Virus record (IMG/VR): IMGVR_UViG_3300017989_000370
Location: 1 to 27,653 of that record
DNA from: a virus
DNA: 27,653 nt
Direction: 5' to 3' (one strand)
Shown: in pieces, positions 1-27,653 of the stretch
Position numbering within the stretch: position 1 is the stretch's first letter
How the letters are laid out: every line of letters starts with the position of its first letter
Program-made: the position numbers and the translations under genes
Notes under the pieces: model-generated
Database searches by the model: none
What the model was told of the DNA's origin: nothing
The model's input: only the letters and a program-made list of their open reading frames with translations

Positions 1-150
1 CATAAGCAGAAGGGGCTGCTGGATCCGGATGACCTTGGCAGCGTATCGAGCTATATCCAGGGCCATAGGCTCCAGGAACAGGCGAAGACGCAGCACGCCC
101 GGACGATCGGGCGCGATGTCGAAGTAGACGCTTTTGGGGATCCTGTATAA
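1..150 (+). CDS. C-terminal end of an unidentified phage protein (partial)
   Basis: An open frame enters from the left edge in frame 1 and stops at TAA 148-150, giving 49 visible residues. The tail is hydrophilic, with an acidic LDPDDLG stretch, a helical Gln/Lys/Arg-rich middle and an end in DVEVDAFGDPV. No domain can be recognised in so short a piece. The next gene starts 10 bases downstream in the same direction, so it probably belongs to the same early operon. The frame is judged real because it is open from the edge, hydrophilic in composition, and followed directly by a ribosome site. Confidence 0.6.
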   Translation, partial: HKQKGLLDPDDLGSVSSYIQGHRLQEQAKTQHARTIGRDVEVDAFGDPV

Positions 151-160
151 GGAAAGAATC

Positions 161-355
161 ATGGGCTGTAATTCAACAACGAAATGCGAACCTGAACAGC
201 AGGCGCAGCAGATACTCGATAGGATGGCGGAAATCATTGCGCATAATGAATGCCGGTGCACCGCCTATCCGGATTGCCCAGCACTGCAGAAAGTGGCGTT
301 CATTGCGGCCAAGGTGCAGGTCGACAATGGCGTGCGGATGCTCACTGTAAAATAG
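161..355 (+). CDS. Small Cys-containing hypothetical protein
   Basis: Encodes 64 residues. The ATG at 161 is chosen over an upstream in-frame TTG because AAGGAAAG lies just before it. Early Cys residues (MGC, KCE) and a central CRC...DC group (residues 32-40) could bind a metal, but no known zinc-finger spacing is complete. The rest is helical (EQQAQQILDRMAEII). It sits 17 bases before the replisome-organiser-like gene and is probably co-transcribed with it. Function is unknown. Confidence 0.6.
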   Translation: MGCNSTTKCEPEQQAQQILDRMAEIIAHNECRCTAYPDCPALQKVAFIAAKVQVDNGVRMLTVK

Positions 356-372
356 ACACTGAGGGGATCGGT

Positions 373-1407
373 ATGAAGGGACTGGTGCTAAGTACCGTTG
401 AGGGACAGTCACGGCGATTTGATTTGCTGTGCGAGGCCCTGGAAGTGGATACCGTGGAGGATACGTACACAGTGCGGGGACATCTTATGTGCTGGTTTGA
501 GAAGTGGTCTGCGGATCCGGCGACCGACAGCGGGCTGCTGTGGGATGTCAGCGAACGGCAAATGGGACTGTGGGCGCACTGGTCCCGGCCGCTTGTCTTC
601 GGCCGCGCGCTGGCGAAAGCTGGCTACGTATCTCCTATAGAGTCTATTTATCCTGCGGAACTGGTGAAGGGCCGACCGGGCTTTGTTGTGGCCGGCTATG
701 AAAGCGGTGTCGCGCTGGATACGTCATGGAATGGGGTACATTATCGACGCACAAACGCTCAGGAGCTGGTACTATACCTGACCAATCCTAAGCAGCGTGC
801 GCGGCAGATGGAGACCCTGGGGGTAGTCGTAGAGGACCTGGTGAAGGCCGGCAAGGTACCGGCTGACTGGGCTCCGCAACGTGGCGGTACCGGATCCGCT
901 CAACAAAACGGTGAAGCCGGCAGGGATGGGCCCCAGCGCGGCCAGGGTATGGGGGGAGGTCTAGAGGATGGTCTAGACCCTGGTATAGACCCCTCTTTAA
1001 GACGTAAGAACGTAACCGTAAAAGAAAGTGATTTATCACAACGTGACGTTCCCTCCCCCGTACCCCCTCCCCGGCAGGACGGTACGGGAATGGGAAGGAA
1101 ACCAAGGGAGAAAAGAAGAAAGTACCGGAATGATGCAAGCCACGGGACGCCCGGGACGGGCAATCACAAATCCTCGCAGATGCTGCTATTTGTGAGGGAA
1201 GAGAAATACAACAACCCCCTCGCATGCCTTCAGCAATTCGACGGTACGGATAAGGCCATGGGATTCTGGAAGAAAGCCGTTGATCGGGATGTGCAGGCCG
1301 TCATGCAGGTATTGGCCAACATGACGGAAACGGACGAGGCATGGGCGAAGATCATGAACCCAGCCGCTGTAGCAAGCTTCCGGCTGAAGGAGAAAGTTAA
1401 ATGGTAG
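373..1407 (+). CDS. Probable phage replisome organiser / replication initiator-like protein
   Basis: 344 residues from ATG 373, preceded by GAGGGG. Residues 1-130 resemble the N-terminal part of DnaD-like or O-like phage replication proteins: a helix around LMCWFEKWSA, then LWAHWSRPLVFGRALAKAGYV, which matches the usual pattern of a winged-helix segment ending in a 'val..aGy/wl' turn. Residues 185-270 are low-complexity, rich in Gly, Pro and Arg, and coincide with repeats in the DNA. The C-terminal 75 residues are helical and Trp-containing. Phage lambda O is a known case of an origin inside the initiator gene, and this layout is similar. The replication role is inferred from the pattern only and no catalytic motif is visible. 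It could also be a transcription regulator. Confidence 0.45.
   Translation: MKGLVLSTVEGQSRRFDLLCEALEVDTVEDTYTVRGHLMCWFEKWSADPATDSGLLWDVSERQMGLWAHWSRPLVFGRALAKAGYVSPIESIYPAELVKGRPGFVVAGYESGVALDTSWNGVHYRRTNAQELVLYLTNPKQRARQMETLGVVVEDLVKAGKVPADWAPQRGGTGSAQQNGEAGRDGPQRGQGMGGGLEDGLDPGIDPSLRRKNVTVKESDLSQRDVPSPVPPPRQDGTGMGRKPREKRRKYRNDASHGTPGTGNHKSSQMLLFVREEKYNNPLACLQQFDGTDKAMGFWKKAVDRDVQAVMQVLANMTETDEAWAKIMNPAAVASFRLKEKVKW
959..991 (+). repeat. Three iteron-like decamers (GGTCTAGACC type)
   Basis: Three imperfect copies of one decamer start at 959 (GGTCTAGAGG), 970 (GGTCTAGACC, a perfect palindrome) and 982 (GGTATAGACC), spaced 11 and 12 bases, so they lie on one face of the helix. They fall inside the replisome-organiser-like gene. 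An A/T-richer stretch follows at about 995-1040 with repeated ACGTAA. Iterons next to an AT-rich stretch are a classic phage origin layout. The repeats are also consistent with the encoded GLEDGLDPGIDP repeat, so protein-level selection is an alternative. Confidence 0.5.
1049..1078 (+). repeat. Left arm of a perfect 30 bp inverted repeat
   Basis: The 30 bases 1049-1078 are the exact reverse complement of 1432-1461. This arm is C-rich on the + strand, so the G-quadruplex motif lies on the - strand. It is inside the coding sequence of the replisome-organiser-like gene. A direct repeat ACGGTACGGG begins immediately after it at 1079. Confidence 0.95.
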
Positions 1408-2425: not shown

Positions 2426-2426
2426 C

Positions 2427-2885
2427 ATGCCGCTGAAAAACTACACTTCGAAGATCCCGGCGAGCCAGTCAATCGTGTTCATTGAACGCAAGCTGGTGCT
2501 GAACGGTGCCCGCGATATCATGAAGCGCTACGATGACAACCAGCGTGTGTGTGCCATCATGTTTATCATTCCGATCGACGGCCGGGACATGCCCTTTAAG
2601 CTGCCCGCCCAGGTCGATGCCTGTGAACGTGTGCTGGAAGGGAACCTGTCCCCCAGGGCGGCCGCGGAAACCAGGAAGAAGATACCCGCCCAGGCTGAAC
2701 GGACAGCCTGGAAGATCCTGGCGGACTGGGTAGACGCACAGATGGCCATGATCGAGCTGGCGCAGGTCGAGGTACTGGAGGTATTCCTGCCGTACGTCTA
2801 TGACCATGCAAAGGAACAGACGTTTTTCGAGCAAGTGAAGCAGAAGAAGTACAGGGCCCTACTGCCATCCGGGGGTGCCGCGTGA
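2427..2885 (+). CDS. Conserved phage hypothetical protein
   Basis: 152 residues. The start MPLKNYTSKIPASQSIVFIERKL, then LNGARDIMKRYDD and IDGRDMPFKLPAQVD, match a recurring phage early-region protein that I recognise by pattern but that has no assigned function. Downstream, AWKILADWVDAQMAMIELAQVEVLEVFLPYV is the conserved helical core. The stop overlaps the GTG start of the papain-like gene (GTGA at 2882-2885), so the two are translationally coupled. No active-site residues can be pointed to. Confidence 0.75.
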   Translation: MPLKNYTSKIPASQSIVFIERKLVLNGARDIMKRYDDNQRVCAIMFIIPIDGRDMPFKLPAQVDACERVLEGNLSPRAAAETRKKIPAQAERTAWKILADWVDAQMAMIELAQVEVLEVFLPYVYDHAKEQTFFEQVKQKKYRALLPSGGAA

Positions 2886-3394
2886 TAACGGACATTGCCA
2901 TAGATCCATTTGTGCAGAATGACACCTGGACGTGCTTTGCCCGAGTCGCCGCGTGGATAACCGGCAGTCTGCTGCAGGAAGTATTTGACTTCATCGGCCA
3001 CGATGGGAGCGGCGAGGATCCCACGGGCGTGCACCCGCATGGCGCCCGGGGATTCCATGACCAGGAGATACTGGCCTTCCTTCTGAGTCATGACTACATG
3101 CTGTCATTCACTGAGCTGCGCAGCGGCCCGGTACGCTGGAACCGGCACGCATTAGAAGCACAGCCCGAGTGTGTGCTGACAGTGCTGCAGCGCAAGCTGC
3201 TACGTGCTGACGGGTCACCGACCTACCACGCCATCTACTGGGACGGCCGCAGGCTACGGGACCCGGTAAGGCCCAATGAAGTGAACATTGAACCCTATGA
3301 AATCACCCACACCTGGACGGTACGCAAGCTCGAGCGCTACGCACCGTTCAGTATTTCCATCCGGCAGGGACAGGGGAGCATAACGAATGCCTAG
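2882..3394 (+). CDS. Papain-like/C39-like fold phage protein, copy 1
   Basis: 170 residues from GTG 2882, which overlaps the previous stop. The N-terminus has Q12-N-D...C18, the oxyanion Gln and nucleophile spacing of papain-like and C39-like enzymes. A GHDGSGEDP and GFHDQEI segment follows, then H116-A-I-Y-W-D121-G, the usual His plus acidic residue block of this phage family. A cysteine peptidase-like fold is inferred from pattern; activity and substrate are unknown. A second copy lies at 4531-5046 with about 97% protein identity. The last ten residues differ from copy 2. The gene overlaps the next start by 8 bases. Confidence 0.65.
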   Translation: MITDIAIDPFVQNDTWTCFARVAAWITGSLLQEVFDFIGHDGSGEDPTGVHPHGARGFHDQEILAFLLSHDYMLSFTELRSGPVRWNRHALEAQPECVLTVLQRKLLRADGSPTYHAIYWDGRRLRDPVRPNEVNIEPYEITHTWTVRKLERYAPFSISIRQGQGSITNA

Positions 3395-3647
3395 AAGATG
3401 CAGAGACATTGAAGACCACGAATGGGTGCCATCCGACAACCCGCAACACGTTGGCGGGATGGTATGCCAGGTATGCGGGCTGGATCCAGAAGACGCAGCA
3501 ATAGAGGACTATTGCGGGGAGCCAGAAACGTGCTGGCACTGCGGGGGCGATGGCGGCCATCACGATTGTGGGGAGGACACCTGTTGCTGCGCAGATCCAG
3601 AGATAAACGTGCCGTGCAACGTCTGCGGCGGGACTGGCGAGATTTAA
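3387..3647 (+). CDS. Small Cys-rich zinc-knuckle protein
   Basis: 86 residues, ATG 3387 with GGGGAG upstream. It carries many Cys: CQVC near residue 27, CWHCGGDGGHHDC near 49, a CCC run, and CNVCGGTGEI at the end. The CxxCxGxG-like pieces resemble DnaJ-type zinc knuckles, though the set is not a full DnaJ domain. It probably binds zinc. It is the first of five small genes between the two papain-like copies. The target of binding is unknown. Confidence 0.65.
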   Translation: MPRRCRDIEDHEWVPSDNPQHVGGMVCQVCGLDPEDAAIEDYCGEPETCWHCGGDGGHHDCGEDTCCCADPEINVPCNVCGGTGEI

Positions 3648-4530: not shown

Positions 4531-5046
4531 ATGATAACAGACATTGCCATAGATCCATTCGTGCAGAATGACACCTGGACATGCTTTGCCCGGGTGGCGG
4601 CCTGGATAACCGGCAGCACGTTGCAGGAAGTCTTTGACTTCATCGGCCACGATGGGAGCGGTGAGGATCCCACCGGGGTACACCCGCATGGCGCCCGTGG
4701 ATTCCATGACCAGGAGATACTGGCCTTTCTTCTCAATCACGATTACATGCTGTCATTCACTGAGCTGCGCAGTGGGCCAGTACGCTGGAACCGCCTAGCG
4801 CTGGAAGCCCAGCCTGAGTGCGTGCTGACCGTCCTACAACGCAAGCTGCTACGCGCAGACGGATCCCCGACCTATCACGCCATCTACTGGGACGGCCGCC
4901 GCCTGCGGGATCCGGTAAGGCCCAATGAAGTGAACATTGAGCCGTACGAAATCACCCACACCTGGACGGTGCGGAAACTTGAGCGCTACGCGCTGTTCAA
5001 TCTTTCACTTCAGCAGTCACAACAACACGGAGGTAGCAGTAGATGA
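4531..5046 (+). CDS. Papain-like/C39-like fold phage protein, copy 2
   Basis: 171 residues from ATG 4531. The sequence is almost that of the gene at 2882: over the first 161 codons I count about 58 base differences but only five amino-acid changes. Q12, C18, H116 and D121 are all kept. The end diverges to a Gln/Ser-rich tail. The stop overlaps the start of the membrane protein gene (ATGA at 5043-5046). Both copies thus look functional. Copy 2 has two GGATCC sites, at about 4860 and 4907, that copy 1 lacks, both through silent changes. Confidence 0.65.
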   Translation: MITDIAIDPFVQNDTWTCFARVAAWITGSTLQEVFDFIGHDGSGEDPTGVHPHGARGFHDQEILAFLLNHDYMLSFTELRSGPVRWNRLALEAQPECVLTVLQRKLLRADGSPTYHAIYWDGRRLRDPVRPNEVNIEPYEITHTWTVRKLERYALFNLSLQQSQQHGGSSR

Positions 5047-5435: not shown

Positions 5436-6323
5436 ATGCCGAGCCAAGGGAAAAAGGGCCGGAAGGGGAAATCCGCCACGCGCAAACCTAAGCGCAAGAC
5501 CAGTGCGAAACTCACCACGCTGCAGAAGCGCTTTTGTCGTGAGTATGTCGCGGATCCACGTGACGCTGCCGGTGCCCTGGACCGTGCCGGATCCAAAGGG
5601 ACGCCGCAAGCTCGAGCGGTGACCGCGTCCCGATGGCTGAAGGAAGCTAAGATCAAGAAAGAGATTGCGCGACTGGAAGCCGCGGCCGACCAGACCAGTG
5701 GGAAGCGTGGTGCCATTTTCGATCCATCGCTGCCACTGAAAAAGCCGAAGTGGGAAGCATTTGTACTGGCCGTCTTCAATCAGCACGAACAGCAGAATTA
5801 TGGTGAAGCTTACTTAGCCGCGGGCTACAAGCCAGGTACACGTGACGCTGCCAGCAAGATGGGATCGGCGCTCATGAAAAAACATGAAGTGTCTGAACGG
5901 CTGAAATGGTTACAGCAGCAGGCTGCCGATGAGAGCGTGGACACGGCCCGGGAGCGCAGCCAGAGATTGACCAGGATAGGCCGCCAGAACCTACTGAAGT
6001 ACTTGCGTGAAGATGGGACGATGGACGTAGCGGGGATGAAGGCTGACGGGGTAGTGCTCACGCAGATAGACGTACAGGAGCTGCGCGTGAAGGGTGTTGA
6101 GGGCGCGCAGTGTATGCAACTGAAGTTCAAGACGCCGGACCCACTGCGGGCTGCGGAGATCCGCAACAAGATGGACGGCAGCAACGCCCCGGAGGAAGTC
6201 ATACACAAGGGAGAGATCACGAACATGCCGCCTACGCCCAGGTCCATAGCGGAGTGGGAAGAGCAGGCGGCCGAAGCGCGTAAGAAGCACGAAGAGAGGC
6301 AAAGGAAGGAAGGAAGATCATGA
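5436..6323 (+). CDS. terS: Terminase small subunit with two helix-turn-helix repeats
   Basis: 295 residues, ATG 5436 after AGGGAG. The small subunit binds phage DNA and recruits the large subunit for packaging. A basic tail (1-25) is followed by a Terminase_2-like DNA-binding unit at about 26-80 (LTTLQKRFCREYV, then AAGALDRAG and a WLKEAKIKKEI end). A second copy of the same pattern follows at about 105-165 (FVLAVF, EAYLAAGYKPGTRDAASKM, HEVSERLKWL). The C-terminal part (RIGRQNLLKYLREDGTMD to LRAAEIRNKMDG) fits the usual oligomerisation region. Most relatives have one DNA-binding unit, so the duplication is unusual. The stop overlaps the next start (ATGA). Confidence 0.75.
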   Translation: MPSQGKKGRKGKSATRKPKRKTSAKLTTLQKRFCREYVADPRDAAGALDRAGSKGTPQARAVTASRWLKEAKIKKEIARLEAAADQTSGKRGAIFDPSLPLKKPKWEAFVLAVFNQHEQQNYGEAYLAAGYKPGTRDAASKMGSALMKKHEVSERLKWLQQQAADESVDTARERSQRLTRIGRQNLLKYLREDGTMDVAGMKADGVVLTQIDVQELRVKGVEGAQCMQLKFKTPDPLRAAEIRNKMDGSNAPEEVIHKGEITNMPPTPRSIAEWEEQAAEARKKHEERQRKEGRS

Positions 6324-6711: not shown

Positions 6712-7050
6712 ATGGCAAAGCTACTGGGAAAGACTGACGAACTGACTATCCTGTGTGTGCAAGAGCCTGAGCTGATCCGCGCGATCAAAGCGGACCTTGG
6801 GCCAGTCGCAGACACGCCATCGGAACAGACGCTGGCTGGTGCCTGCCGCGTGTACGCGGAATACGAGGTCCGGGACAAGAAAGGCGAGCTGAAAGTGCAC
6901 GCCGCCCATGAGTTCTTCCTGCACCGGATCCCGGAAGGCAAGGAAATTGGCCCGTGCCTATGTCTCTCAATACTCGAGAAGCCACCGCAGGAGCGGCTGA
7001 AGTACTACACGAAGCACCTGACCAAGGCGCTGGAGGCAACGGACCGATAG
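6712..7050 (+). CDS. Hypothetical protein in the packaging operon
   Basis: 112 residues, two bases after the previous stop. A soluble alpha/beta protein without membrane segments: TILCVQEPELIRAIKADLG, then YAEYEVRDKKGELKVHAAHEFFLHRIPEG, and a helical end LKYYTKHLTKALEATDR. No motif that allows a function was seen. A short hairpin (CTGCA, loop GGCG, TGCAG at 7056-7069) lies between it and terL. Confidence 0.6.
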   Translation: MAKLLGKTDELTILCVQEPELIRAIKADLGPVADTPSEQTLAGACRVYAEYEVRDKKGELKVHAAHEFFLHRIPEGKEIGPCLCLSILEKPPQERLKYYTKHLTKALEATDR

Positions 7051-7093: not shown

Positions 7094-8476
7094 ATGAGCT
7101 ACTGGGAACCACAGCCCGGACCACAGGCAATCGCGTCGGTATGCCCGTGCGACTACACACTGTTTGGCGGCACGCGAGGCGGCGGCAAGTCGGACTGTCT
7201 ACTGGGCCGGCAGCTGACGGGAGCGGAGCAGTGGGGTGCATCCTGGGCGGGGCTCATTGTCAGGCGGAAGTACAAGCAGTTTGCAGAAATGCGCCGGCGG
7301 ATAGACGGGATGATCGCCCAGGGCCTGCCGTGCGAGCGGATAGGCGGGGACCAGCAGACGAACTACCTGCGGTTCAGGAACCGGGCACAGGTGGTCCTGG
7401 CGGGCGTGGAGAAAGCCGCGCAGCTGGACGATTTCCAGGGGCACGCATACGGGGAGATAAGCATAGATGAAGGGCCTACGTTTCCGTTCTTCAGCACGCT
7501 CATGGACAAGCTTAAAGGCTGCCTGCGCGCACCGACTGGGTACACGGGCCCGTGCCGGATGTTCGTCACGGGGAACCCGGGCGGCCCAGGACACTCCCAG
7601 GTCAAGTCTATCTTCATCGACCAGGCGCCAGCGGGGCAGGTGTTCTATGATGACGCAGGCGAGTCGTACGTGTATATCAAGAGCTTTCTGCGGGATAACC
7701 GGATTCACTGCGAGAATGATCCGAAGTATGCGCGCCGGCTGCAGTCGATTAAGGATCCAGCACTGCGCAAGGCGTGGCTGGACGGGGACTGGGACGTGTT
7801 TATCGGCCAGGCATTTGAATTCACCAGGACGTACCACGTCATCGACCCGCTCCCGGTACCCAAGCACGCCCAGCTATGGTTCACGTTTGACTGGGGGTTT
7901 GGGGCACCGTTCAGCGTGGGCTGGTGGTGGATGGATGGTGACGGCCGGCTGTATCGTTTTGCTGAGTGGTACGGCTGTGGGGAGCAGCCCAACACAGGCC
8001 TGCGGATTCCAGCGTCCGGGATTGCTGAAGGGATCCTGGAGCGGGAAATGCAGCTGGGAATCAGTAAGCGCAAGATCCTGCGGCTGGCGGGACATGATTG
8101 CTTCTCGAAGCAGCCAAACTTCATGGGCGGCGGCCAGGGTGCGGCCGTGTCTACCATCTTCGCGGACTACGGGATCATTCTCAAAAAGGGTGACTCAAGC
8201 CGCCTGCAGAAGATCCAGCAATTCAGAGAGCGAATCAGGCTCAAGCGCGACGAGAATGACGAAGTCATTGAACCGCCTATGCTGCTGGTCTACAAGACGT
8301 GCAAGCACTTCATCCGGACCATCCCGGCGCTGTGCAATGATGAGGATGACCCGGAAGACGTGGACACTGAGCAGGAAGACCATATCTATGACGAAGCCTG
8401 TCACGTGTGCATGGACCGGCCGCTGGCCGTCGACAACAGTTTCAGGGGAGCGAATGCAGAGAGTGGAGCGGTGTAA
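7094..8476 (+). CDS. terL: Terminase large subunit (packaging ATPase and nuclease)
   Basis: 460 residues. The enzyme pumps DNA into the procapsid by ATP hydrolysis and cuts the concatemer. Visible motifs in order: an adenine-binding PGPQ (8-11); Walker A GGTRGGGKS (25-33); Walker B ISIDE with D125-E126; coupling motif T159-G-N-P-G-G; and the RNase H-like nuclease with FTFDWGF (D266) and EDHIYDEACH near D429/D433. The length is at the compact end for the family. The ribosome site before ATG 7094 is weak, so translation may depend on upstream coupling. In this phage the portal gene is not next to terL but 8.2 kb downstream. Confidence 0.93.
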   Translation: MSYWEPQPGPQAIASVCPCDYTLFGGTRGGGKSDCLLGRQLTGAEQWGASWAGLIVRRKYKQFAEMRRRIDGMIAQGLPCERIGGDQQTNYLRFRNRAQVVLAGVEKAAQLDDFQGHAYGEISIDEGPTFPFFSTLMDKLKGCLRAPTGYTGPCRMFVTGNPGGPGHSQVKSIFIDQAPAGQVFYDDAGESYVYIKSFLRDNRIHCENDPKYARRLQSIKDPALRKAWLDGDWDVFIGQAFEFTRTYHVIDPLPVPKHAQLWFTFDWGFGAPFSVGWWWMDGDGRLYRFAEWYGCGEQPNTGLRIPASGIAEGILEREMQLGISKRKILRLAGHDCFSKQPNFMGGGQGAAVSTIFADYGIILKKGDSSRLQKIQQFRERIRLKRDENDEVIEPPMLLVYKTCKHFIRTIPALCNDEDDPEDVDTEQEDHIYDEACHVCMDRPLAVDNSFRGANAESGAV

Positions 8477-8491: not shown

Positions 8492-8881
8492 ATGCCAAGC
8501 ATAGCACCCAAAACCTACGGAGACATCAGCCCCGGGGCTATACGCCCAATGATGCAGGCGCTTGGATCCGGCGCATACCCAGGGGAGCGGGTCGAAGTGG
8601 TAGACGATACGGCCCGGTGCCGCATATGCGGTCATCTATTCCCGCCAGGCTATCTTGGCTACTCATACGACGATGGCGTGTGCGCCAGCGCGGCGTGCGT
8701 GTTCGAGAAGCTACGCGAGGAACTGGAGTATGACGAGGGATTTGAAGAGCGCCTGCAGGACGTGCTGCCCGGGTATCGACTCGGCCCCATCATCATGAGC
8801 GACTGGATATTTAGACTGGACGATGAAAGCGAAGAGGCAGCGGCCTGTGCGATAACGCCCACGGTACGGGGGCCGGTGTAG
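8492..8881 (+). CDS. Hypothetical protein with a zinc-finger-like motif
   Basis: 129 residues, ATG 8492 after GGAGCG. A CRICGHLF knuckle (near residue 43) and CASAAC (near 64) could bind zinc, followed by a strongly acidic helix (EKLREELEYDEGFEERLQDV). The N-terminus has a TYGDISPG segment, also seen in the major capsid protein here (NTYGDISPN), which may be chance. The last codons run into the GGTGTA repeat array. No function can be assigned. Confidence 0.6.
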   Translation: MPSIAPKTYGDISPGAIRPMMQALGSGAYPGERVEVVDDTARCRICGHLFPPGYLGYSYDDGVCASAACVFEKLREELEYDEGFEERLQDVLPGYRLGPIIMSDWIFRLDDESEEAAACAITPTVRGPV

Positions 8882-9402: not shown

Positions 9403-9727
9403 AGAACCGACCATGCAGGAGCTATACCTGGTCACGGGGGCCTGGGTGATAGCGGAGGTCCGGCCGCACCCGGACAAGAAGAAGATCATACTGCAGGATC
9501 CGCTGAAGGTCCGGCAGGTGCGCGTGCGTGGCCAGGGGCTGGCCCTGGAGATTCAGCCGCTTATCCCGGCGTCCGGTCCGGGATCCGCGCTGGAGCTCCC
9601 GAAGGATGCAGTGGTAGTACCGATGGAAGCCAGGCCGAACCTGGTCAAAGAATGGTGCAAGGCCGCTGGCCGTCCGTACGTTGAGCCTATTCACATGATG
9701 CCGCCGGATCCGGCAGGTGGAAACTGA
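9386..9727 (+). CDS. Sm-like (LSm/Hfq-fold) phage protein
   Basis: 113 residues. ATG 9386 overlaps the end of the previous gene and follows GAGGGACAGG. The pattern ELYLVTGAWVIAEVRPHPDKKKIILQDPLKVR matches the Sm1-like strands of small phage LSm proteins (L-x-T-G-x-x-V/I-I-x-E-V, then I-x-L-x-D/N-P), and a second hydrophobic strand pair follows. Such proteins form rings and some bind RNA. This is a fold guess from pattern. The stop overlaps the next ATG. Confidence 0.5.
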   Translation: MISKIEEPTMQELYLVTGAWVIAEVRPHPDKKKIILQDPLKVRQVRVRGQGLALEIQPLIPASGPGSALELPKDAVVVPMEARPNLVKEWCKAAGRPYVEPIHMMPPDPAGGN

Positions 9728-10311
9728 TGGAATACCCAGGAGAAGAGCTAATATACTGGTTTGTCAGGCGCATGCGATGCACAGAGTTTGAACTGGGGGA
9801 GTCCGTTCCCCTGGCTATGCAGCTTGAAACAGGGAAACTGCCAACCCAAGACATGAAACTGGAGGGACTGAACTGGGCTGCCAAGAACAAGAGCGCAATT
9901 CGTCTGGTAGTGGGCGCACTGCAGCACGGCTTCATCACCAATGGGATGAGCCGCGAGGAAACAAGGAGCGGAATTCAAAAGTACATGCCGGCGCCCGTCG
10001 TGCGACTTAACAAGGCGCTCGAGGAAATCCACTGGGCACTGGTGCCGATACGTTTACGTCCTGGGCACTGGCGCGTTATCGACGATGACAACAAAGAAAC
10101 TTGGGTGAGGGTAAGCCGCACGCTGTTGGCTATCCACGCACAGCCTGGAGGCACTGCATATCTAGAGCTAACTGGGGCCATAATGGAGGTATGCGTACAC
10201 AAGAATGGCCTCACTGTCCGAAGCCGATTAAACCCAGGCAACATGGTAACGCTGCACAACCACGATGCACCGTTTGAAGTGCGAAAAGCCAAGGGGGAAA
10301 CTGAGCGATGA
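9727..10311 (+). CDS. Hypothetical protein
   Basis: 194 residues, start coupled to the previous stop (TGATGG). The N-terminal half is helical (ELIYWFVRRMRCTEFELGE, then LNWAAKNKSAIRLVVGALQHGFI). The C-terminal half looks beta-rich (HWRVIDDDNKETWVRVSR, TAYLELTGAIMEVCVHKNGLTVRSRL). No motif is recognised. The stop overlaps the start of the first Tat-leader gene (ATGA at 10308). Confidence 0.55.
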   Translation: MEYPGEELIYWFVRRMRCTEFELGESVPLAMQLETGKLPTQDMKLEGLNWAAKNKSAIRLVVGALQHGFITNGMSREETRSGIQKYMPAPVVRLNKALEEIHWALVPIRLRPGHWRVIDDDNKETWVRVSRTLLAIHAQPGGTAYLELTGAIMEVCVHKNGLTVRSRLNPGNMVTLHNHDAPFEVRKAKGETER

Positions 10312-18929: not shown

Positions 18930-19214
18930 ATGAACAACAACATCATTCAGCAAGCACTCAAGCCAGACGAGATCCTGGAGCTTAGCAAACTGGACCAGAT
19001 AGGTCCCGGCAAAGCTCTATTGAAACTTGCAGCCTTTGAGCGCGACCGCCGACGCAAGACCAACGAGGAAAAGCCCGCCATCAGCGATGACATCGCCCGG
19101 GACTGGCGTACGATAAGCGGAAGAGTCGCGGCGCTCAATGAAGTGCTTGATAGTCCAGCACGCGCAAAGAAGATCAACGCCGAAGTAAACAAAGGAAAGG
19201 GACCCCACTCATGA
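18930..19214 (+). CDS. Small helical hypothetical protein
   Basis: 94 residues from ATG 18930; the ribosome site is weak. The sequence is helical (PDEILELSKLDQIGPGKALLKLAAFERDRRRKT) and soluble. It ends in an ATGA overlap with the next start at 19211. It is the first gene after the structured leader. No family is recognised. Confidence 0.5.
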   Translation: MNNNIIQQALKPDEILELSKLDQIGPGKALLKLAAFERDRRRKTNEEKPAISDDIARDWRTISGRVAALNEVLDSPARAKKINAEVNKGKGPHS

Positions 19215-20287
19215 AGAAACTCCACCGCATGTACCAGACCGCCGCCGCATTCATCCTGCTCATTTGCATGATGGCGTGCATCAGCCCGCTGCACGCAGAA
19301 ATCATCACGCATGACGTGACCTATAAAGGCCGCGTCTGGTTCAACAAGGGATGTATCATGGACATCCGGGGAACCTGGCGGATCGGTGGCACCACGGTCA
19401 ACGCGACGGCCGCCCAGCTGAACCAGCTTTACAGTGGCGCGCTCGAGGCCGACACGGTCTCAGAGAGCACGTCCGGCGCCGGCGTCACCGTCGACGGCGT
19501 GAAGATGAAGGACAATGATATTGTCCATGCCGGCACAGTGGGTACAGCGCTGTGGGCCGGATCCTACATTGCCGCAGAGCCGCAGGACTACTACGAGTTC
19601 ATGGATGACTTCTTTACCGCCGGCTACATTGCCAACGCCGCGGATACGAACACCGCCGGACTCACGATCCTGAAGGGCGGGAAGTTTTCCGAAGCGGCCG
19701 ACCATGCCGGATGGCTGGTCAGCGTGACCGACGGTGACAGCGATGAAGGCGAGACCATTGTGGTTGCCGATGACGCCGCGGGCGGCATCCTGGTCATCAC
19801 GTGTAACGACAAGGCCGACGATGCCGTACAGGCACAAATGAACGGCGAGTCATTCGCAGTGACCACAACCAAGGACCTATGGTTTGAAGCGCGTATCGCC
19901 ATCGAGGACGTAAGCGAAGACACCGCCTTTGTCGGTCTGACCGTCGCAGACACGGACATCCTGGGAAGCCTGGGAAATGACTTCATGGGCTTCTACATGG
20001 ACCAGTCCGCTGTCCTGCAGTACCAGCAGGCCAAGAACGGAACGATTACCACGAACACCGTCACCACGAACCTGCTGGATGCAACGTTCGTACGTGTGGG
20101 CGTGTACGCGGATGGATCCGTGAGTAACAGCTACGTGTACCTGAACGGCACGTGCATTGCCACGAACGCTGCATCCGCCACGCTTCCCAATGATGAAGCG
20201 CTTTCCCCGGCCCTGGCGATCCTGACCACGGACACAGGCGCGGACTATCTCAAAGCTGACTATATGAAAATCCAGGCAACCCGGTAA
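19211..20287 (+). CDS. Signal-peptide protein with a LamG/lectin-like phage domain
   Basis: 358 residues. The start has a Sec signal peptide: basic KKLHR, a hydrophobic core AAAFILLICMMACI, and a cut after SPLHA near residue 29. The mature part from about 125 on (DYYEFMDDFFTAGYIANAAD, then LWFEARIAIEDV, FVGLTVADT, NSYVYLNGTCIATN) has the beta pattern of concanavalin/LamG-like domains seen in phage structural proteins. It lies between portal and scaffold, where a virion part is expected, yet the leader would send it out of the cytoplasm. Mature Cys residues could form disulfides. A structural or decoration role is inferred. Confidence 0.6.
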   Translation: MKKLHRMYQTAAAFILLICMMACISPLHAEIITHDVTYKGRVWFNKGCIMDIRGTWRIGGTTVNATAAQLNQLYSGALEADTVSESTSGAGVTVDGVKMKDNDIVHAGTVGTALWAGSYIAAEPQDYYEFMDDFFTAGYIANAADTNTAGLTILKGGKFSEAADHAGWLVSVTDGDSDEGETIVVADDAAGGILVITCNDKADDAVQAQMNGESFAVTTTKDLWFEARIAIEDVSEDTAFVGLTVADTDILGSLGNDFMGFYMDQSAVLQYQQAKNGTITTNTVTTNLLDATFVRVGVYADGSVSNSYVYLNGTCIATNAASATLPNDEALSPALAILTTDTGADYLKADYMKIQATR

Positions 20288-20330: not shown

Positions 20331-20684
20331 ATGGCCAAGGACAAAGACGCACCTACTGCTGACCCGAAACCGGAAACGCCAGAACCTTCCGCAGGTCCCG
20401 CGACCGCCGGCGAAGGCGCACCTACGCCCCCGCCCCCGGAACCGCCTGACCAGCCCCCTGAGCCGAAACCGGAGAAGCCGAAACCCCAGCCGAAGAAGGC
20501 TGAGCCCAAGCCCGACACCAACCCGGTGAAGGTCCTGCATGAGGGCGGCAAGGACAGTGAGCGCGTGACCGTCATGAACCTTGGCACGCTTGGATCCATT
20601 ATCAAGATCGGTGACGTTGCAGTGTTTGCGCCTGTCATCATCACGGGGATGAAGGGCAATACGCCCATTTGCAAGGCGGTCTGA
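20331..20684 (+). CDS. Pro-rich hypothetical protein
   Basis: 117 residues from ATG 20331, after AGGAGAC. Residues 1-65 are a Pro/Lys/Glu-rich unstructured region (repeated PEPKPEKPKPQP). The last 50 (DSERVTVMNLGTLGSIIKIG, then VFAPVIITGMKGN) form a small beta domain. In position, between portal and scaffold, it may be a minor head part, but no motif supports this. Confidence 0.55.
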   Translation: MAKDKDAPTADPKPETPEPSAGPATAGEGAPTPPPPEPPDQPPEPKPEKPKPQPKKAEPKPDTNPVKVLHEGGKDSERVTVMNLGTLGSIIKIGDVAVFAPVIITGMKGNTPICKAV

Positions 20685-20750: not shown

Positions 20751-22052
20751 ATGAAAAACATACTGAGAATGTTTGCTGGCCCAGGGGACGTGCTGCCGGC
20801 AAGTGAAGAAAGCGACGATGACGAGTACGGTTCCGGGTTCGATGGTAACCTGGACGGCGAAGAGGCCAAGCCAAAGGAAGAGCCAGCCCCCGCGCCGGCC
20901 CCTGCGGATCCTCCGCCAGAACCAAACGCAGACCCGGCCCCCGCGGCCGCAGCACCTGCAGCCCCCGCACCAGAGGGTGACGAGTCTGGTGCCCCAAAGG
21001 ATGACCCCGAAGCCGTAAAGGCGATCGAGGAAGCGACCGAGGCAGCCCAGGGTGCCAAGGAAGCCGCAGACGCCGCGCAGAGGCGCGTAGACAGCCTGGG
21101 GGATGACACCAGTGCTAAAGACAAGGCAGACGCCCAGCAGGCGCTTGAAGCGGCCACACAGGCCAGCCAGGAAGCCGATGCAGGCCTGAAAAAACTTACG
21201 GGTGAGTCAGGAGCCGACAAGCTGAAGGCTGCTGAAGAGTATGCGACCCAGCAGGCCGAAGCCGCCGAAGCTGCGGCCGTCGAAGCCGTCCTGCAGGAAG
21301 TCGAGAAGGTACACCCGTCCGCCAGGCAGACTGTGCAGACCCCCGCTTTCCTCAACTGGGTAGCAACCCAGGACCAGGAGACCCAGCGGAAGGTCTACGC
21401 CGGCAGTGCCCAGGAAGGCATCGAAGTACTGAATGCCTATGCCGAGTCGAACAAGCAGGAAGATAAGAAGCCGACGCCCTTAACGGATGAGGACCTGCTG
21501 GCGATCGAGATTGAGGGTGAAGACGGGAAGAAGACCACGCTGAAGAGCCTGATTGAGGGCGAGGATGATGACGGCTATGGCAACGAGATCCTGCAGCTGG
21601 TCAAAGCGGTCAGCCAGGCGATGGTGGCCAGCCAGGTCAGCGGGATTAACCAGGTAGATCCGCAGATGCTCAACCAGTACCAGGCCCAGCTGGCGTCCCA
21701 GGCTGAAGAGATTGCGGAACTGAAGTTTGATCGGCAGATTCGAGGCAAGCATGCCGACTACCATGCGATCGAAGCGTCCGACGCATACCGGAAAGAGTGG
21801 CTGCCAAAGCAGTCCGAGCGGATCCAGGAGATTGCGACCAGTTACGATGTTGACGGCGTAGCGATGGTCATAGACGCCTACAAAGCTCAGCAGGTCAAGA
21901 AAGGTGCCGCGGAAAGCCGTACAGAAACGCAGCGCACCCGGGACCTGCACAGCAGTACGCTACGGAAGCAAACAGGACAGAAGAAATCCCCAAGTGCGGA
22001 GAGCGATGACTATGACGGCGGATTTGAACAGCAAGCCCAACCCGCCGCGTAA
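20751..22052 (+). CDS. Scaffold protein (probable)
   Basis: 433 residues, after ACGGAGAATAGGG. Phage scaffolds are acidic, helical proteins made just before the capsid and needed to build the procapsid. Here residues 15-90 are acidic and Ala/Pro-rich, 90-190 are helical and Ala/Glu-rich, the middle has LTDEDLLAIEIEGEDGKKT, and the C-terminal 50 are basic (RTETQRTRDLHSSTLRKQTGQKK) with an acidic tip. It lies just before the Com-like gene and the capsid gene, as expected. The identity rests on composition and place, not on a motif. The final bases overlap the next gene by 47. Confidence 0.65.
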   Translation: MKNILRMFAGPGDVLPASEESDDDEYGSGFDGNLDGEEAKPKEEPAPAPAPADPPPEPNADPAPAAAAPAAPAPEGDESGAPKDDPEAVKAIEEATEAAQGAKEAADAAQRRVDSLGDDTSAKDKADAQQALEAATQASQEADAGLKKLTGESGADKLKAAEEYATQQAEAAEAAAVEAVLQEVEKVHPSARQTVQTPAFLNWVATQDQETQRKVYAGSAQEGIEVLNAYAESNKQEDKKPTPLTDEDLLAIEIEGEDGKKTTLKSLIEGEDDDGYGNEILQLVKAVSQAMVASQVSGINQVDPQMLNQYQAQLASQAEEIAELKFDRQIRGKHADYHAIEASDAYRKEWLPKQSERIQEIATSYDVDGVAMVIDAYKAQQVKKGAAESRTETQRTRDLHSSTLRKQTGQKKSPSAESDDYDGGFEQQAQPAA

Positions 22053-22242
22053 TATGGGCAGGGGTACGGAAGTGTCCCTGCTGCCAACGATTAAGGTAGA
22101 ACTGGAAAATGATTACAAGTGCCCATCTTGCGGCAAACTGCTATTCAAAGGCAGGCTTGCACCAGGATCCTCTCTCGAGGTCCTGTGTACGCGCCGGCCA
22201 CGCAAGCGGTGCAACCGGTATATCAAGTTCCAGTCTATGTAG
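22006..22242 (+). CDS. Com-like zinc ribbon protein
   Basis: 78 residues from ATG 22006, with GGAGAG just upstream; ATG 22012 and 22054 are in frame. The last 45 residues (ENDYKCPSCGKLLFKGRLAP, then EVLCTRRPRKRCNRYIKF) follow the phage Mu Com pattern: CxxCgKLLFK, a turn, a strand and a second Cys pair. In Com the second knuckle is CxxC; here it is C then seven residues then C, a longer basic loop. Mu Com turns on translation of the DNA-modifying gene mom. No mom-like gene is visible here, so the role is open. Confidence 0.6.
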   Translation: MTMTADLNSKPNPPRNMGRGTEVSLLPTIKVELENDYKCPSCGKLLFKGRLAPGSSLEVLCTRRPRKRCNRYIKFQSM

Positions 22243-22324
22243 GTAGAGAAAGCAGCCAGATGACCAGAAGGCTCCAGGAAGCCTCCGTGTGTTGGCACCA
22301 AACAGCAGAGGGAGGGAGAACAGC

Positions 22325-23374
22325 ATGAATGGAGTAGGACTCAGAATGGGGTCAGGTGCAAACCTGAACACGTACGGGGACATTTCCCCGAACACAGCTG
22401 GCGGGCTCGAAGCAACCATGCTTCGCGTAGCCGCACCGCGGGCAGTCACAGCGCGCTTCGCGCAGGTCGACGAAATGCCCATGAACAAGGGTAACACCAA
22501 GACGTACCGGCGCTACCACTCGCTGCCGCCGGCGACGGCACCTTTGGCTGATGGCGTGACGCCTGCTGGCCAGAGAATCACCTACGATGACCTGGAAGTG
22601 GTCCTGGAAGAGTACGGTGACTATGTACCCCTGACCAACCGCGTGAAGGACCTGCACACGGATCCCGTGCTGCAGACGATGTCCAAGCGCTGCGGTGACC
22701 AGATTGTGGATACCACGGAGCTGGTGAACATCGAAGTGCTCAAAGGTGGCACGAACGTAGTCTACGCCGCCGGCGTGGCTGGCCGTTCATCCATTGTGTC
22801 CGCCGTGACCCGGAGTGACTTCAGGCTGGCAGAGCGCGCCCTGCACAACCAGCGCGCAGACGTAATCAGTGAGATCATTAAGGCAACGCCGAAGATCGCC
22901 ACTGAGCCCGTCGCAGAGGCATTCTTTGCGATGACGCACACGGACATGAAGGCCGATATCGAGAACGTACAGGGGTTCACGCCCGTCGAGAAGTACGCCG
23001 ATTCGGACGGCAAGATCAAGTACGAGATCGGCAAAGTCGGTAGCGTGCGGATCCTGGCCACCAACAACTTCACGCCCTGGGCGGCCGCTGGCGGTAACAG
23101 CGCCACACTGCTTGCCAATGGAGCGGACCCCGCTTCGGCAACAGCGTGCGATGTTTACCCCATCATCATTGTTGGCAAGGACGCCTATGGAACGGTTCCG
23201 CTGCGCGGCAAGCGCAACGTGAAGCCGCGTGTGCTGCAGCCTGATACCCCGCGTGGTGGTGACCCCATCGGACAGCGCGGAAGTGTTGGCTGGAACAAGT
23301 ACCATGCGTGCCTGATTCTGAACCAGCTGTGGATGATCCGGATTGAAACCGGTTGTACCGCAGTGCCCGATTGA
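22325..23374 (+). CDS. Major capsid protein, N4-gp56 family
   Basis: 349 residues from ATG 22325, with GAGGGAGGGAG upstream. The capsid shell protein builds the icosahedral head. The sequence has the N4-gp56-type course: an N-terminal arm, DDLEVVLEEYGDYVPLTNRV then DLHTDPVLQTMSKRCGDQ, GGTNVVYAAGV, an E-loop-like MPMNKGNTKTYRRYHSLPPA, and a C-terminal part with YGTVPLRG and GQRGSVGW. The length fits the family. It follows scaffold and Com-like genes and precedes a probable head-decoration gene, the usual podovirus order. Confidence 0.85.
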   Translation: MNGVGLRMGSGANLNTYGDISPNTAGGLEATMLRVAAPRAVTARFAQVDEMPMNKGNTKTYRRYHSLPPATAPLADGVTPAGQRITYDDLEVVLEEYGDYVPLTNRVKDLHTDPVLQTMSKRCGDQIVDTTELVNIEVLKGGTNVVYAAGVAGRSSIVSAVTRSDFRLAERALHNQRADVISEIIKATPKIATEPVAEAFFAMTHTDMKADIENVQGFTPVEKYADSDGKIKYEIGKVGSVRILATNNFTPWAAAGGNSATLLANGADPASATACDVYPIIIVGKDAYGTVPLRGKRNVKPRVLQPDTPRGGDPIGQRGSVGWNKYHACLILNQLWMIRIETGCTAVPD

Positions 23375-24191: not shown

Positions 24192-24225
24192 CCACCAGTA
24201 GCAACACGAAAGAAAAGAGGGAACA

Positions 24226-24843
24226 ATGCCTGACATTAGGGAAAGTCGAGAGCTGATACTGACGAATGCGAACGAGCCGTTCAAGACCCCGGCCAGCGCC
24301 AACCTTGTTAAGACCAATGCGGTCAAACGTGGTGCGATGGATCCGCGGGACTATGAAATCATGCCGTACACCCTGGGGGATAAGGAAGGCTACGCACTGG
24401 TCCGCAAGGGCAGCCAGGTAGCCGCCAAACTCCAGTCTGAAGGGGCTGAACCAGTCGAAACCGCAACAGACCCGACGCGCCAAGTACTGACGGATGACAA
24501 GCGCAAATCAGAAGAGGGTCTAACGCCGGCCGGGCTTCCGGTCAACGGCTATTCAGTTGTGGTGTTCCATGAGAAGCCGCACCAGGACCTGCAGAACGAT
24601 GTCATTCTTGGCCACAACACTGAAGTGATCCAGTGTCAGCGTGGCGTGGAAGTCATCATTCCGAACAAGTACTTGGGTGTGGCGGATGACGGGATATTCC
24701 GGAAGTTTAAGGTTATCCCTGGTGAAGATCGCAAGGTATCAAGCGTGATTCAGCACTACCCGTACACGCGGATCCGTGAAGCGACGAAGGAAGAGTATGA
24801 CGAGTTTGTATCAGTCATGCGCGACCTGCGCCGCACGGCCTAG
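24226..24843 (+). CDS. Hypothetical protein between head and adaptor genes
   Basis: 205 residues from ATG 24226, with AAGAGGGAACA upstream. It begins with a Thr/Asn-rich linker, then a soluble alpha/beta part (MPYTLGDKEGYALVRKGSQV, NGYSVVVFHEKPHQDLQN, VIIPNKYLGVADDGIF). No family is recognised. Position between capsid and adaptor suggests a virion or assembly part. Confidence 0.55.
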   Translation: MPDIRESRELILTNANEPFKTPASANLVKTNAVKRGAMDPRDYEIMPYTLGDKEGYALVRKGSQVAAKLQSEGAEPVETATDPTRQVLTDDKRKSEEGLTPAGLPVNGYSVVVFHEKPHQDLQNDVILGHNTEVIQCQRGVEVIIPNKYLGVADDGIFRKFKVIPGEDRKVSSVIQHYPYTRIREATKEEYDEFVSVMRDLRRTA

Positions 24844-24889
24844 CGTTTACGGTATGTCTGTGGGCTGGTGGAGGTGGAGGGCATGAGAA

Positions 24890-25813
24890 GTGTCGAAACT
24901 CACAAGCTATGCAAGCCTGAAAAAGCACTGGATCCCGTTATTGCCTGGGTGCGATGACGGGATTGTGCTTAATACGCTCAAGCGTGTAGGGCGCAAGTTC
25001 TGCGAAGACACCGAAGCCTGGAAAGAAGAATTCCACGAACCGCTGGTAAACTACCAGCAGGACTACCAGATCAACTACGGCTACAGTGCGGAAATCCAGC
25101 GCATTGACAGCCTGCGCGTAAACGCCGTCAAGTACCATAGCAGCTACTACGGGCTCTATGAGGGCGACACCATCCGGTTTAAGGCCTCACAGATACCGAA
25201 CCAGCTGGATGACATGCTGCTGACCTGTGACACGGCCGGCACTACCACGATCGCAGACTGGAACGCCATCACAGACGGATCCTTTACCGTCGGAATCGAC
25301 ACCGGGACCTACTCAGTAGAGGAACTGGATTTCAGCAACGCCGTAGACATGGATGGTGTGGCGCAGGTCATGATGACCGGCTTGCGCCAGGAGCGCGAGG
25401 CCAACCAGGGCTTTATCCGCTATGACTCCGTGGGCACCCGATTCATGCTGTACGTGGATTCCGGAACCATCACCGTCCTGACCGCCGGTGCGTCCGGCAC
25501 CGATATATCCGGATCCGGATACATGAACGGCCTGACCGGCGCCGGTGAAGTGTCCGGGCATATGATGGTCGATATCGCCTTCCTGCCAGACTCCGATGCC
25601 GATGACCTGGCGGACTACGTCATGGACCGCTGGGGCCTGACCATCCTGGGCGGCGCGGTCGCAGAGCTGGCAGCACAGCCCAAGAAGCCCTGGACGGATC
25701 CCAGCGTGGCAGCAGACCAGAAGCGCGTCTACAAACGCGGCTGGGTGCGGGCGAAAGCTGAGAACGATTTACAGAACAAGCAGGCGCTGAGCGCCTTCAT
25801 GTGGGACGGGTGA
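24890..25813 (+). CDS. Head-tail adaptor with an inserted beta domain
   Basis: 307 residues from GTG 24890, after GTGGAGG. The first 100 residues (ASLKKHWIPLLPGCDDGIVL, then KFCEDTEAWKEEFHEPL and a beta strand set) and the last 85 (IAFLPDSDADDLADYVMDRW, GGAVAELAAQPKKPW, WVRAKAENDLQNKQALS) fit the phage adaptor family that closes the portal ring. Between them, about 106-222, lies a beta-rich insert (AITDGSFTVGIDTGTYSVEE, then LDFSNAVDMDGVAQVM, GTRFMLYVDSG) like domains found in phage sheath-type proteins (DUF3383-like). The insert is unusual. It ends one base before the next ATG. Confidence 0.65.
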   Translation: MSKLTSYASLKKHWIPLLPGCDDGIVLNTLKRVGRKFCEDTEAWKEEFHEPLVNYQQDYQINYGYSAEIQRIDSLRVNAVKYHSSYYGLYEGDTIRFKASQIPNQLDDMLLTCDTAGTTTIADWNAITDGSFTVGIDTGTYSVEELDFSNAVDMDGVAQVMMTGLRQEREANQGFIRYDSVGTRFMLYVDSGTITVLTAGASGTDISGSGYMNGLTGAGEVSGHMMVDIAFLPDSDADDLADYVMDRWGLTILGGAVAELAAQPKKPWTDPSVAADQKRVYKRGWVRAKAENDLQNKQALSAFMWDG

Positions 25814-25814
25814 T

Positions 25815-26849
25815 ATGAACCGAGCTCCAAAACTCTTTGCCGTGACTTTTGTGATATGCTGCCTAATGCCCGTGCTGGTAACTGCGACAACCCTCTATGA
25901 GTCAAGGCCCCGGGAAACCAATGTGGTCTATTACGACATGGGCGCGGAATCGCAGTATGACCTGGCACCGGCAGCGGGCAGCACACCCGAATACTGGTTT
26001 TACCTGTGGCTGGATGAAAACACCCAGTTCAATCCGACGAGCTACACAGCCAGGCTGCATTTCTCCGATGAAGAAGACGTGGACAATGTCAGCGGCACAG
26101 ACTTTGTCACCGGGACGTGCTACAGCAACTATGTGGTGTTCAGCTTCTCCACGAATGACCTGCAGACATCCTGGGAAGAGGGCTACAGCGCCATCACACT
26201 GACATCCGGGACTGAAGTGCATACGTTCTGCCGCGGGGTCCTGACCAGCCTGGTGGCGCCAGAGATAGGCGGCACGAACGTGTTTGCAGGTACCACCGCG
26301 ATCAACTGGGCGGAGTACGGTCCCCATACGTCCGTGCTGACATCTTTTGTGTTATTGGCGGGTAGTAACATGACTACCCGGGCTGTTGGCACGAACGGGC
26401 AGTACTACCTGGACGTGACGCTGCCGGCAACCAACAGAATAGCCGAAGCATCGAAGACCATCAGCGATACGCTGCCAATCGGGGTGACGCCAACCAACAT
26501 CCCGGCCTGGCATTCTGTGAGATCAGATAGCGGTTATGCAGTGAGCGCCACCAATATGGTTGTCACGAACGCCGGTAGCTACACGCTTACGTTCACCGGG
26601 GCCATTGGGTTGCCTGCTGCAGCAACGTACTTTGCCGAGTTTTTCACCAATGGCGTACAGGCAGTGGACGCAGGGGGAAACGATATCGAGGCAGTAGCGC
26701 TCAATGTTATCGGTGGATTTACCAAGAGACTGCACACCACGAGAACCATAACTTTAGGAGCCAACACCGACTGCGAGTGGCGCATGCGGTGTGCTACGGC
26801 CGGAACGGTAACATTTTACGATGCTGTGTGGAGAATAGAAAGCAACTAA
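25815..26849 (+). CDS. Tail or baseplate-like protein with a signal peptide
   Basis: 344 residues from ATG 25815. Leader: MNRAPK, a hydrophobic core LFAVTFVICCLMPVLV, and a cut near TAT (about residue 25). The mature start (YYDMGAESQYDLAPA, then YWFYLWLDEN, YTARLHF and NDLQTSWEEGYSAITL) resembles the N-terminal domain of phage baseplate upper proteins, followed by beta repeats with Thr/Asn-rich links. Cys pairs outside the leader could form disulfides. It lies after the adaptor, where tail genes begin. The identity is by pattern only. Confidence 0.5.
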   Translation: MNRAPKLFAVTFVICCLMPVLVTATTLYESRPRETNVVYYDMGAESQYDLAPAAGSTPEYWFYLWLDENTQFNPTSYTARLHFSDEEDVDNVSGTDFVTGTCYSNYVVFSFSTNDLQTSWEEGYSAITLTSGTEVHTFCRGVLTSLVAPEIGGTNVFAGTTAINWAEYGPHTSVLTSFVLLAGSNMTTRAVGTNGQYYLDVTLPATNRIAEASKTISDTLPIGVTPTNIPAWHSVRSDSGYAVSATNMVVTNAGSYTLTFTGAIGLPAAATYFAEFFTNGVQAVDAGGNDIEAVALNVIGGFTKRLHTTRTITLGANTDCEWRMRCATAGTVTFYDAVWRIESN

Positions 26850-26860
26850 GGAGCATACCT

Positions 26861-27259
26861 ATGAAGACCATCCTGAACGTCATTAACGCATCCCTGGCCA
26901 TCGCCCTTGTCGCCATGATCATGCTGATTGCCGCGGTCCCGGCCCGTGCCGACACGGCCCTTGTCCTCACGGCGTCCTGGGCGGCCGACCAGCACTTTGT
27001 GACGAACACCACGTCCGCCAAGTGGATCTACGCCATCACGCTGAACGGGGCCTTCACGGGTACCAACCAGTGCGAGATAGCCGTGAACAACGGCTTTGGC
27101 TACTACATCCTGGAAAGCGAAAGCACCACCACCAACACCCTTCAGCACCGGGGATGCCCGTCGCTGAAGTGGGAAGCTGGCGGCATCATCCGGTTCACCG
27201 TGACCAGGGCCGGGTCCACCACGAACTTTCACGAAATCATACTGGATAACGCAAAATAA
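26861..27259 (+). CDS. Small beta protein with a signal peptide
   Basis: 132 residues from ATG 26861 after AAGGAGCAT. The leader has a short basic start, a core LAIALVAMIMLIAAV and a classic P-A-R-A cut near residue 30. The mature part is a beta-rich domain (WIYAITLNGAFTGTNQCEI, YYILESESTTTNTL, GGIIRFTVTRAGSTTNFHEI) with two Cys, in style like the end of the previous protein. It probably belongs to the same tail-fibre or surface set. Function unknown. Confidence 0.5.
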   Translation: MKTILNVINASLAIALVAMIMLIAAVPARADTALVLTASWAADQHFVTNTTSAKWIYAITLNGAFTGTNQCEIAVNNGFGYYILESESTTTNTLQHRGCPSLKWEAGGIIRFTVTRAGSTTNFHEIILDNAK

Positions 27260-27270
27260 GCGGGGGCATC

Positions 27271-27653
27271 ATGAAGAGATTATTTGCGGCAGGTATTGCC
27301 GTTCTTATGACGGCAGGCGTGTGCTTTGGGCAGTGGGGCTACTCCGACGGGAAGCCTATTCTGAGCGGGGATTTCTCCGGAACCTGGCAGGGGTACAGCC
27401 CTACGGACTTCTTCAGGATCAACTTCAACAACACCGCAGCGGCGGGTACATTGAACACGTTTGCCGATGTTGCGGTGACAGGGACGGCTGACCTCCAAGG
27501 CGGCATCATAACCAACAGCGCGGGTTCAGTCATCACCTCAGCGGTGCCGTTGGTTGCAAGCAGCGGGCTGACTCTAGGAGATAACATTAACATGGGCGGC
27601 AACTCTATCACCAACATAGGAACCAACTCACTTGTGTTCAGCAATGGTGACAA
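27271..27653 (+). CDS. Tail-fibre-like protein with a signal peptide (partial, runs off the end)
   Basis: The first 127 residues are visible from ATG 27271 (with CGGGGGC upstream). The leader MKRLFAAGIAVLMTAGVCFG is a Sec signal with a likely cut near CFG-QW (about residue 20). Then come Gly/Ser/Thr/Asn-rich beta repeats, with a MGGNSITNIGTNSL segment typical of phage fibres and spikes ('GGN-x-ITN-x-G'). The end of the gene is beyond the window. Confidence 0.6.
   Translation, partial: MKRLFAAGIAVLMTAGVCFGQWGYSDGKPILSGDFSGTWQGYSPTDFFRINFNNTAAAGTLNTFADVAVTGTADLQGGIITNSAGSVITSAVPLVASSGLTLGDNINMGGNSITNIGTNSLVFSNGD

Follow-up and report, generated by a model that had tools for sequence, protein, structure and literature searches.

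Excess of the palindrome GGATCC, exact to six bases and not due to codon use, in a tailed-phage fragment

Restriction avoidance predicts that type II sites are lost from phages. Why, then, would a phage genome fill with one? The question is raised by a 27,653-nucleotide stretch of viral DNA (IMG/VR virus record IMGVR_UViG_3300017989_000370, positions 1 to 27,653; hereafter the window), part of a tailed-phage genome, 27.6 kb long, in which the BamHI site GGATCC is the commonest hexamer and, contrary to restriction avoidance, has been gained about three-fold at silent positions. An initial annotation of the sequence had counted about 49 sites by eye against roughly 8 expected from base composition; the exact count is 49 (1.77 per kb) and the expectation 8.2. 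The neighbouring words that it described as far rarer are indeed so, with 12 copies of AGATCC, 5 of CGATCC, 7 of TGATCC, 4 of GGATCA, 8 of GGATCG and 2 of GGATCT.

We compared the count with null models of increasing strictness. A second-order Markov model predicts 14.2 sites in the window and the maximal-order model 31.5. The latter is an unfair null for this word, as the five-letter words that it uses are already filled by the palindrome; its expectation is inflated because GGATC (63 copies) and GATCC (73 copies) are themselves raised by GGATCC. The strongest null that we applied was a synonymous-codon shuffle keeping every protein and the codon usage. Under it, the 41 GGATCC found in the open reading frames (ORFs) stand against 11.0 ± 2.9, and none of 500 shuffles reached 41. 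Keeping the codon-boundary context as well left the expectation at 11.0 ± 2.9, with 0 of 300 shuffles reaching the observed number. The z score after codon shuffles was 10.4–10.5, placing GGATCC first among all 4,096 hexamers, and an opportunity test gave 44 realised sites against 13.9 expected, a ratio of 3.2. None of these models predicts about 49 sites. The excess is thus about three-fold over what the proteins and the codon use predict, and it lies mostly at silent positions. The GATC tetramer is at its expectation in the window (146 seen, 148 expected), and therefore the force acts on the hexamer GGATCC.

All three coding phases are raised, which bears out the earlier remark that the sites occur in several reading frames. 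Gly-Ser pairs are written GGA-TCC in 12 of 42 cases (1.6 expected), X-Asp-Pro contexts of the form ..G-GAT-CC. give GGATCC in 19 of 32 (5.3 expected), and the third phase,.GG-ATC-C.., does so in 10 of 20 contexts (4.0 expected). Given the shuffles and the rise in all three phases, we rejected explanations by codon use, codon context and Markov composition. Around the 49 sites no base is preferred outside the six, and the longer palindrome GGGATCCC is found only once among them. A sharp six-base palindrome without outside conservation fits the target of a dimeric or palindrome-specific enzyme.

The excess runs throughout the window. Only three sites (6%) fall outside the ORF set, which leaves 8% of the window uncovered; these are sites 1 (21–26), 2 (138–143) and 31 (16274–16279). 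Sites 3 to 8 lie at 513–518, 892–897, 1528–1533, 2005–2010, 2053–2058 and 2078–2083, and site 10 at 3482–3487. Sites 14 to 30 follow at 5552–5557, 5589–5594, 6926–6931, 7753–7758, 8031–8036, 8564–8569, 9496–9501, 9581–9586, 9706–9711, 11386–11391, 11681–11686, 12989–12994, 13630–13635, 14057–14062, 14145–14150, 14451–14456 and 15464–15469, and sites 32 to 49 at 17912–17917, 18168–18173, 18271–18276, 18460–18465, 19559–19564, 20114–20119, 20592–20597, 20906–20911, 21820–21825, 22165–22170, 22660–22665, 23049–23054, 24339–24344, 24770–24775, 24930–24935, 25277–25282, 25511–25516 and 25696–25701. Their spacing is near random and slightly even if anything (coefficient of variation 0.81, P = 0.09). 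The largest gap is 1,680 nucleotides, where random placement gives a median of 2,357 (P = 0.04).

The remaining four sites belong to a duplicated gene of no known family, whose copies 1 and 2 lie on the plus strand at 2882–3394 and 4531–5046. One GGATCC is common to both copies (site 9, 3016–3021, and site 11, 4665–4670). Two further sites are present in copy 2 alone, as had been noticed before: site 12 (4861–4866) faces GGGTCA in copy 1, two silent differences away, and site 13 (4908–4913) faces GGACCC, one silent difference away.

Relatives of the phage, gathered by their terminase and capsid genes, behave differently. Pooled over 192 contigs, they carry 399 GGATCC against 789 expected under the second-order Markov model, half of the expectation, and none comes near the window. 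The initial annotation had called the excess the reverse of the phage norm, which holds as a rule, with a published precedent in the subcluster B3 mycobacteriophages to which we return below. Compared with ordinary restriction-site avoidance, the word is of the same kind, a type II palindrome, and the sign is opposite: avoided in the relatives, 49 against 14 in the window. L058, the closest relative by synteny, lacks GGATCC altogether and has few GATC. Among the 119 relatives with enough coding sequence, we ran the codon-shuffle test on all 64 palindromes; 4 of the 7,616 tests reached a z of at least 5 (one each for TGGCCA, CTCGAG, GCGCGC and GCCGGC), the maximum being 6.9, and the same procedure gave GGATCC in the window a z of 8.1. 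The excess thus belongs to this one lineage of phages and is no trait of the family.

Strong excesses of other palindromes arise sporadically among the relatives. CTCGAG is also over-abundant in the window, with 10 sites, 9 of them in ORFs against 1.9 in context-preserving shuffles, and is likewise in excess in relatives L024, L056, L276 and L279. Other strongly over-abundant palindromes in phages were CTCGAG in L276, TGGCCA in L286, GCGCGC in L339 and GAGCTC in L228 and L162; judging from these five, phages may accumulate palindromes more widely.

GGATCC itself is also abundant elsewhere. A scan of viral contigs for three closely placed GGATCC sites, which selects for the signal and so gives examples and not a frequency, yielded further GGATCC-rich contigs, L223, L225 and L150 being among the matches listed. 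Ratios of 2.8–5.1 apply to L223, L225, L150, L167 and L228, and L223, with 53 sites in 12.8 kb (4.1 per kb), is the densest contig longer than 4 kb that we saw.

What could read the site? We favor, tentatively and as somewhat short of probable, the explanation that GGATCC is the target of a sequence-specific methyltransferase, and that the phage genome has been filled with it in the manner of the highly iterated palindromes (HIPs) of cyanobacteria. A methyltransferase in the host, or one that the phage carries beyond the sequenced fragment, would read GGATCC; long replication in such cells would fill the phage genome with the word, mainly at silent positions; and the driver would be either a methylation-directed repair that fixes changes leading to the methylated word or a weak selective advantage of having methylated sites in large number. 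We infer that the reader of the word would be a methyltransferase, that this would be the host's, and that accumulation would proceed by repair bias or weak selection. What is observed is an excess that is exact to six bases, independent of frame and specific to the lineage. That the word has the length of a type II recognition site counts for a methyltransferase, and the lack of large gaps hints mildly at spacing-type selection. The initial annotation had offered a methylation target, a protein-binding signal or a mutation bias as possible readings; simple biases of composition, codon use and codon context are excluded, and the sharpness of the palindrome fits an enzyme target.

Several results weigh against this explanation. 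No methyltransferase family was found among the window ORFs scanned against Pfam, an absence that counts weakly since only a fragment of the phage is available. Of about 20 other viral contigs rich in GGATCC, only two carried a match over the cut-off to the methyltransferase families PF01555, PF00145 and PF02086, and the B3 phages Athena and Daisy, searched for PF00145 and PF02086, had neither. The search for a GGATCC methyltransferase that had been suggested thus turned up none in the window and few elsewhere. As a common cause we rejected a phage-encoded methyltransferase: two matches over the cut-off for the three families in 25 contigs exclude an enzyme of PF01555, PF00145 or PF02086 from that role, though one could lie in the parts of the genomes that are missing. 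The neighbours that deamination of a methylated cytosine would produce (GGATTC/GAATCC and GGATCT/AGATCC) are not clearly depleted.

Candidate hosts bear on the explanation in the same direction. Terminase relatives were found in Verrucomicrobia, Deltaproteobacteria and Firmicutes bins, and capsid relatives, at 36–44% identity, in 7 of 388 genomes from the phylum of a Kiritimatiellae bin (Verrucomicrobiota), an eighth match being weak. With terminase and capsid relatives in Verrucomicrobiota, Desulfobacterota and Bacillota, a cyanobacterial host seems unlikely. We counted GGATCC density in 783 genomes of two candidate host phyla, 388 of Verrucomicrobiota and 395 of Desulfobacterota (the phylum of a Desulfobacteraceae bin). 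None of the 783 exceeded 1.31 GGATCC per kb, against 1.77 in the window, and the densest genomes sampled reached at most 1.7 times the codon-shuffle expectation, against 3.1 in the window. The density outliers (G362, G109, G038, G231, G029, G524, G483 and G713) were set aside as largely explained by codon use. In one Verrucomicrobiota bin a phage and its bin are comparable: the partly GGATCC-rich phage contig (G237, contig 56) carries 37 GGATCC against 18 expected and the bin's sampled contigs 49 against 46. The phage contig has an integrase-like gene, recognised by inspection of its ORFs, and provided that it was binned correctly, the excess in this case belongs to the phage and not to its host. 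As a separate observation, codon shuffling shows TCCGGA to be overrepresented in all the chromosome pieces tested from four genomes of the Verrucomicrobiota phylum (L356–L358, L363–L365 and L127–L132; z of about 2–5.4), possibly a phylum-wide word bias.

The main rival does without methylation: GGATCC would be selected for a function in the phage itself, as a palindrome to which a dimeric protein of the phage or the host binds in genome compaction, protection, packaging or replication. We regard it as rather unlikely, with evidence on both sides. The phage-specific excess in G237 speaks for it, as do the similar ratio in unrelated phages, a largest gap below the chance expectation, and the codon pair of the duplicated gene in which two adjacent silent differences separate GGATCC in copy 2 from GGGTCA in copy 1. 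Six positions with nothing conserved around them are, however, short for a binding site, the spacing is close to random, and no DNA-binding gene common to the GGATCC-rich phages was identified; the PAPS reductase that stands by ParB-like genes in the B3 phages is absent from the others. The broader proposition that unrelated tailed phages were independently selected to carry GGATCC as functional marks, for example as sites of modification or of a binding protein, and so came to gather a classical restriction site, we hold to be unlikely.

A bias of mutation or very-short-patch repair towards GGATCC, Vsr-like or by biased gene conversion and with no present function or methylation, would account for sites that are mainly silent and for neighbour words that together fall below the codon expectation (121 against about 151). 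The donor words of T:G repair (GGATTC, GGATCT and their complements) are not specifically depleted, however, which makes a T:G repair bias less likely. Among the neighbours GGGTCC/GGACCC is the most depleted, but it is also scarce in bacterial chromosomes and in phages that lack the excess, so that its depletion is background, and we rejected a Vsr-like signature; repair bias as a whole appears improbable. Still less probable is a legacy without current role, left by a recent switch from a GGATCC-rich host or by amelioration to the word usage of an unsampled host. Since L058 lacks GGATCC, the excess must be younger than the split from the L058 line, as a legacy would have it; yet the densest of the 783 genomes in the two plausible host phyla fall below the phage's ratio, so no source host is known. 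Finally, we consider it hardly credible that codon usage, protein content or dinucleotide composition produced the excess as a statistical artefact. The maximal-order expectation of 31.5 leans that way, and the dipeptides concerned are somewhat above the prediction from amino acid frequencies (Asp-Pro 41 against 27, Gly-Ser 42 against 30), but the observed 41 lies far above what shuffles give when the proteins, the codon use and the bases at codon boundaries are all preserved, and the palindrome tests on the 119 relatives contain nothing as extreme as the window.

The fragment, with a GC content of 58%, encodes nearly all its recognised genes on the plus strand: the terminase small subunit (5436–6323, PF03592) and large subunit (7094–8476, phrog_2), a portal or head-tail connector protein (16718–18754, phrog_332 and phrog_1216) and the major head protein (22289–23374, phrog_1357), all four on that strand, along with many small genes of unknown function. 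The only other copy of the phage that we found is a 20.8 kb contig; two overlapping pieces of it, together spanning positions 5187–25978, are 100% identical to the window, so that it brings no further sequence. The coding strand of the window strongly avoids ACGAC, with 11 seen against 49 expected in context-preserving shuffles and GACGAC at 0 against 20; the opposite strand shows far weaker avoidance (5 against 8.6), and ATGAC is over-abundant (67 against 38). This may be a codon-pair effect or the shunning of an asymmetric motif. Two small proteins (10308–10604 and 11544–11837) start with MKRRnFL..., unusual for phage genes, and the second matches the twin-arginine (TAT) signal model with an E value of 2e-4, just under the model's cut-off. 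Late proteins at 19211–20287, 25815–26849 and 26777–27259 have N-termini that look, by eye in the ORF list, like signal peptides.

Among known systems, HIPs offer a parallel for the methyltransferase explanation. The best known, HIP1, is GCGATCGC, and alternates include GGGATCCC in the hot-spring Synechococcus OS types A and B; most HIPs occur at 0.5–2.5 per kb, and a cognate methyltransferase is present whenever an alternate HIP is frequent (Elhai 2015, PMC4390886). More generally, 12.4% of the sites of restriction-modification systems are overrepresented in native-looking genome stretches (Rusinov et al., PMC4687349). In both HIP genomes and the window one GC-rich palindrome with a GATC core stands far above the Markov expectation, as the most overrepresented word there and the first hexamer here; GGATCC is contained in GGGATCCC, and the HIP range covers the window's density. 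The differences are that HIPs were described for bacterial chromosomes and the window is a phage, that the unit here has six bases, and that neither GCGATCGC nor GGGATCCC is that unit, the latter occurring once and the flanks showing no preference. HIPs also go with cognate methyltransferases, whereas the window has none among the ORFs scanned, being a fragment only.

The closer comparison, and the only close precedent in phages, is with the subcluster B3 mycobacteriophages (Pipefishvirus, including Athena and Daisy), in which GATC and GGATCC lie about four-fold or more above the zero-order expectation across the genome; this was left unexplained and flagged as needing more investigation (Siranosian et al. 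2015, PMC4841201), and we found no later explanation in the literature searched. In our opportunity test, Athena had 79 realised sites against 23.0 expected and Daisy 82 against 23.6, ratios of 3.4–3.5 that nearly equal the 3.2 of the window, and GGATCC was the top palindrome in the tested 50-kb stretches of both. As an observation apart, GCCGGC and GGCGCC are each absent from the tested stretches of Athena and Daisy (L255 and L256), against about 81 and about 60 expected. Word, strength and want of a known cause are thus shared by phages that are unrelated and differ in GC content (67–68% in B3, 58% in the window). The B3 phages also have GATC raised (603 against 520–526 expected) and other NGATCC words up, whereas the window has GATC as expected and its neighbour words level or down. 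At their left end they carry PAPS reductase-like and ParB-like genes, lineage genes that we did not meet in the window phage: no PAPS reductase domain was found in the window ORFs scanned, and none (PF01507) in G001, the other contig of the phage, or in the other GGATCC-rich contigs. A DNA phosphorothioation-like gene of this kind, present in the B3 phages only, was therefore rejected as a common cause.

The excess in the window is real and strong, a second case of a published phenomenon. Finding the same word at the same strength, and no excess of GATC, in another and unrelated phage shows that the effect is one of the hexamer and that it recurs. The case bears on the origin of highly iterated palindromes, for which it provides a test: the phage excess must follow either a host methyltransferase or the phage's own need, and the B3 phages are culturable in the laboratory.

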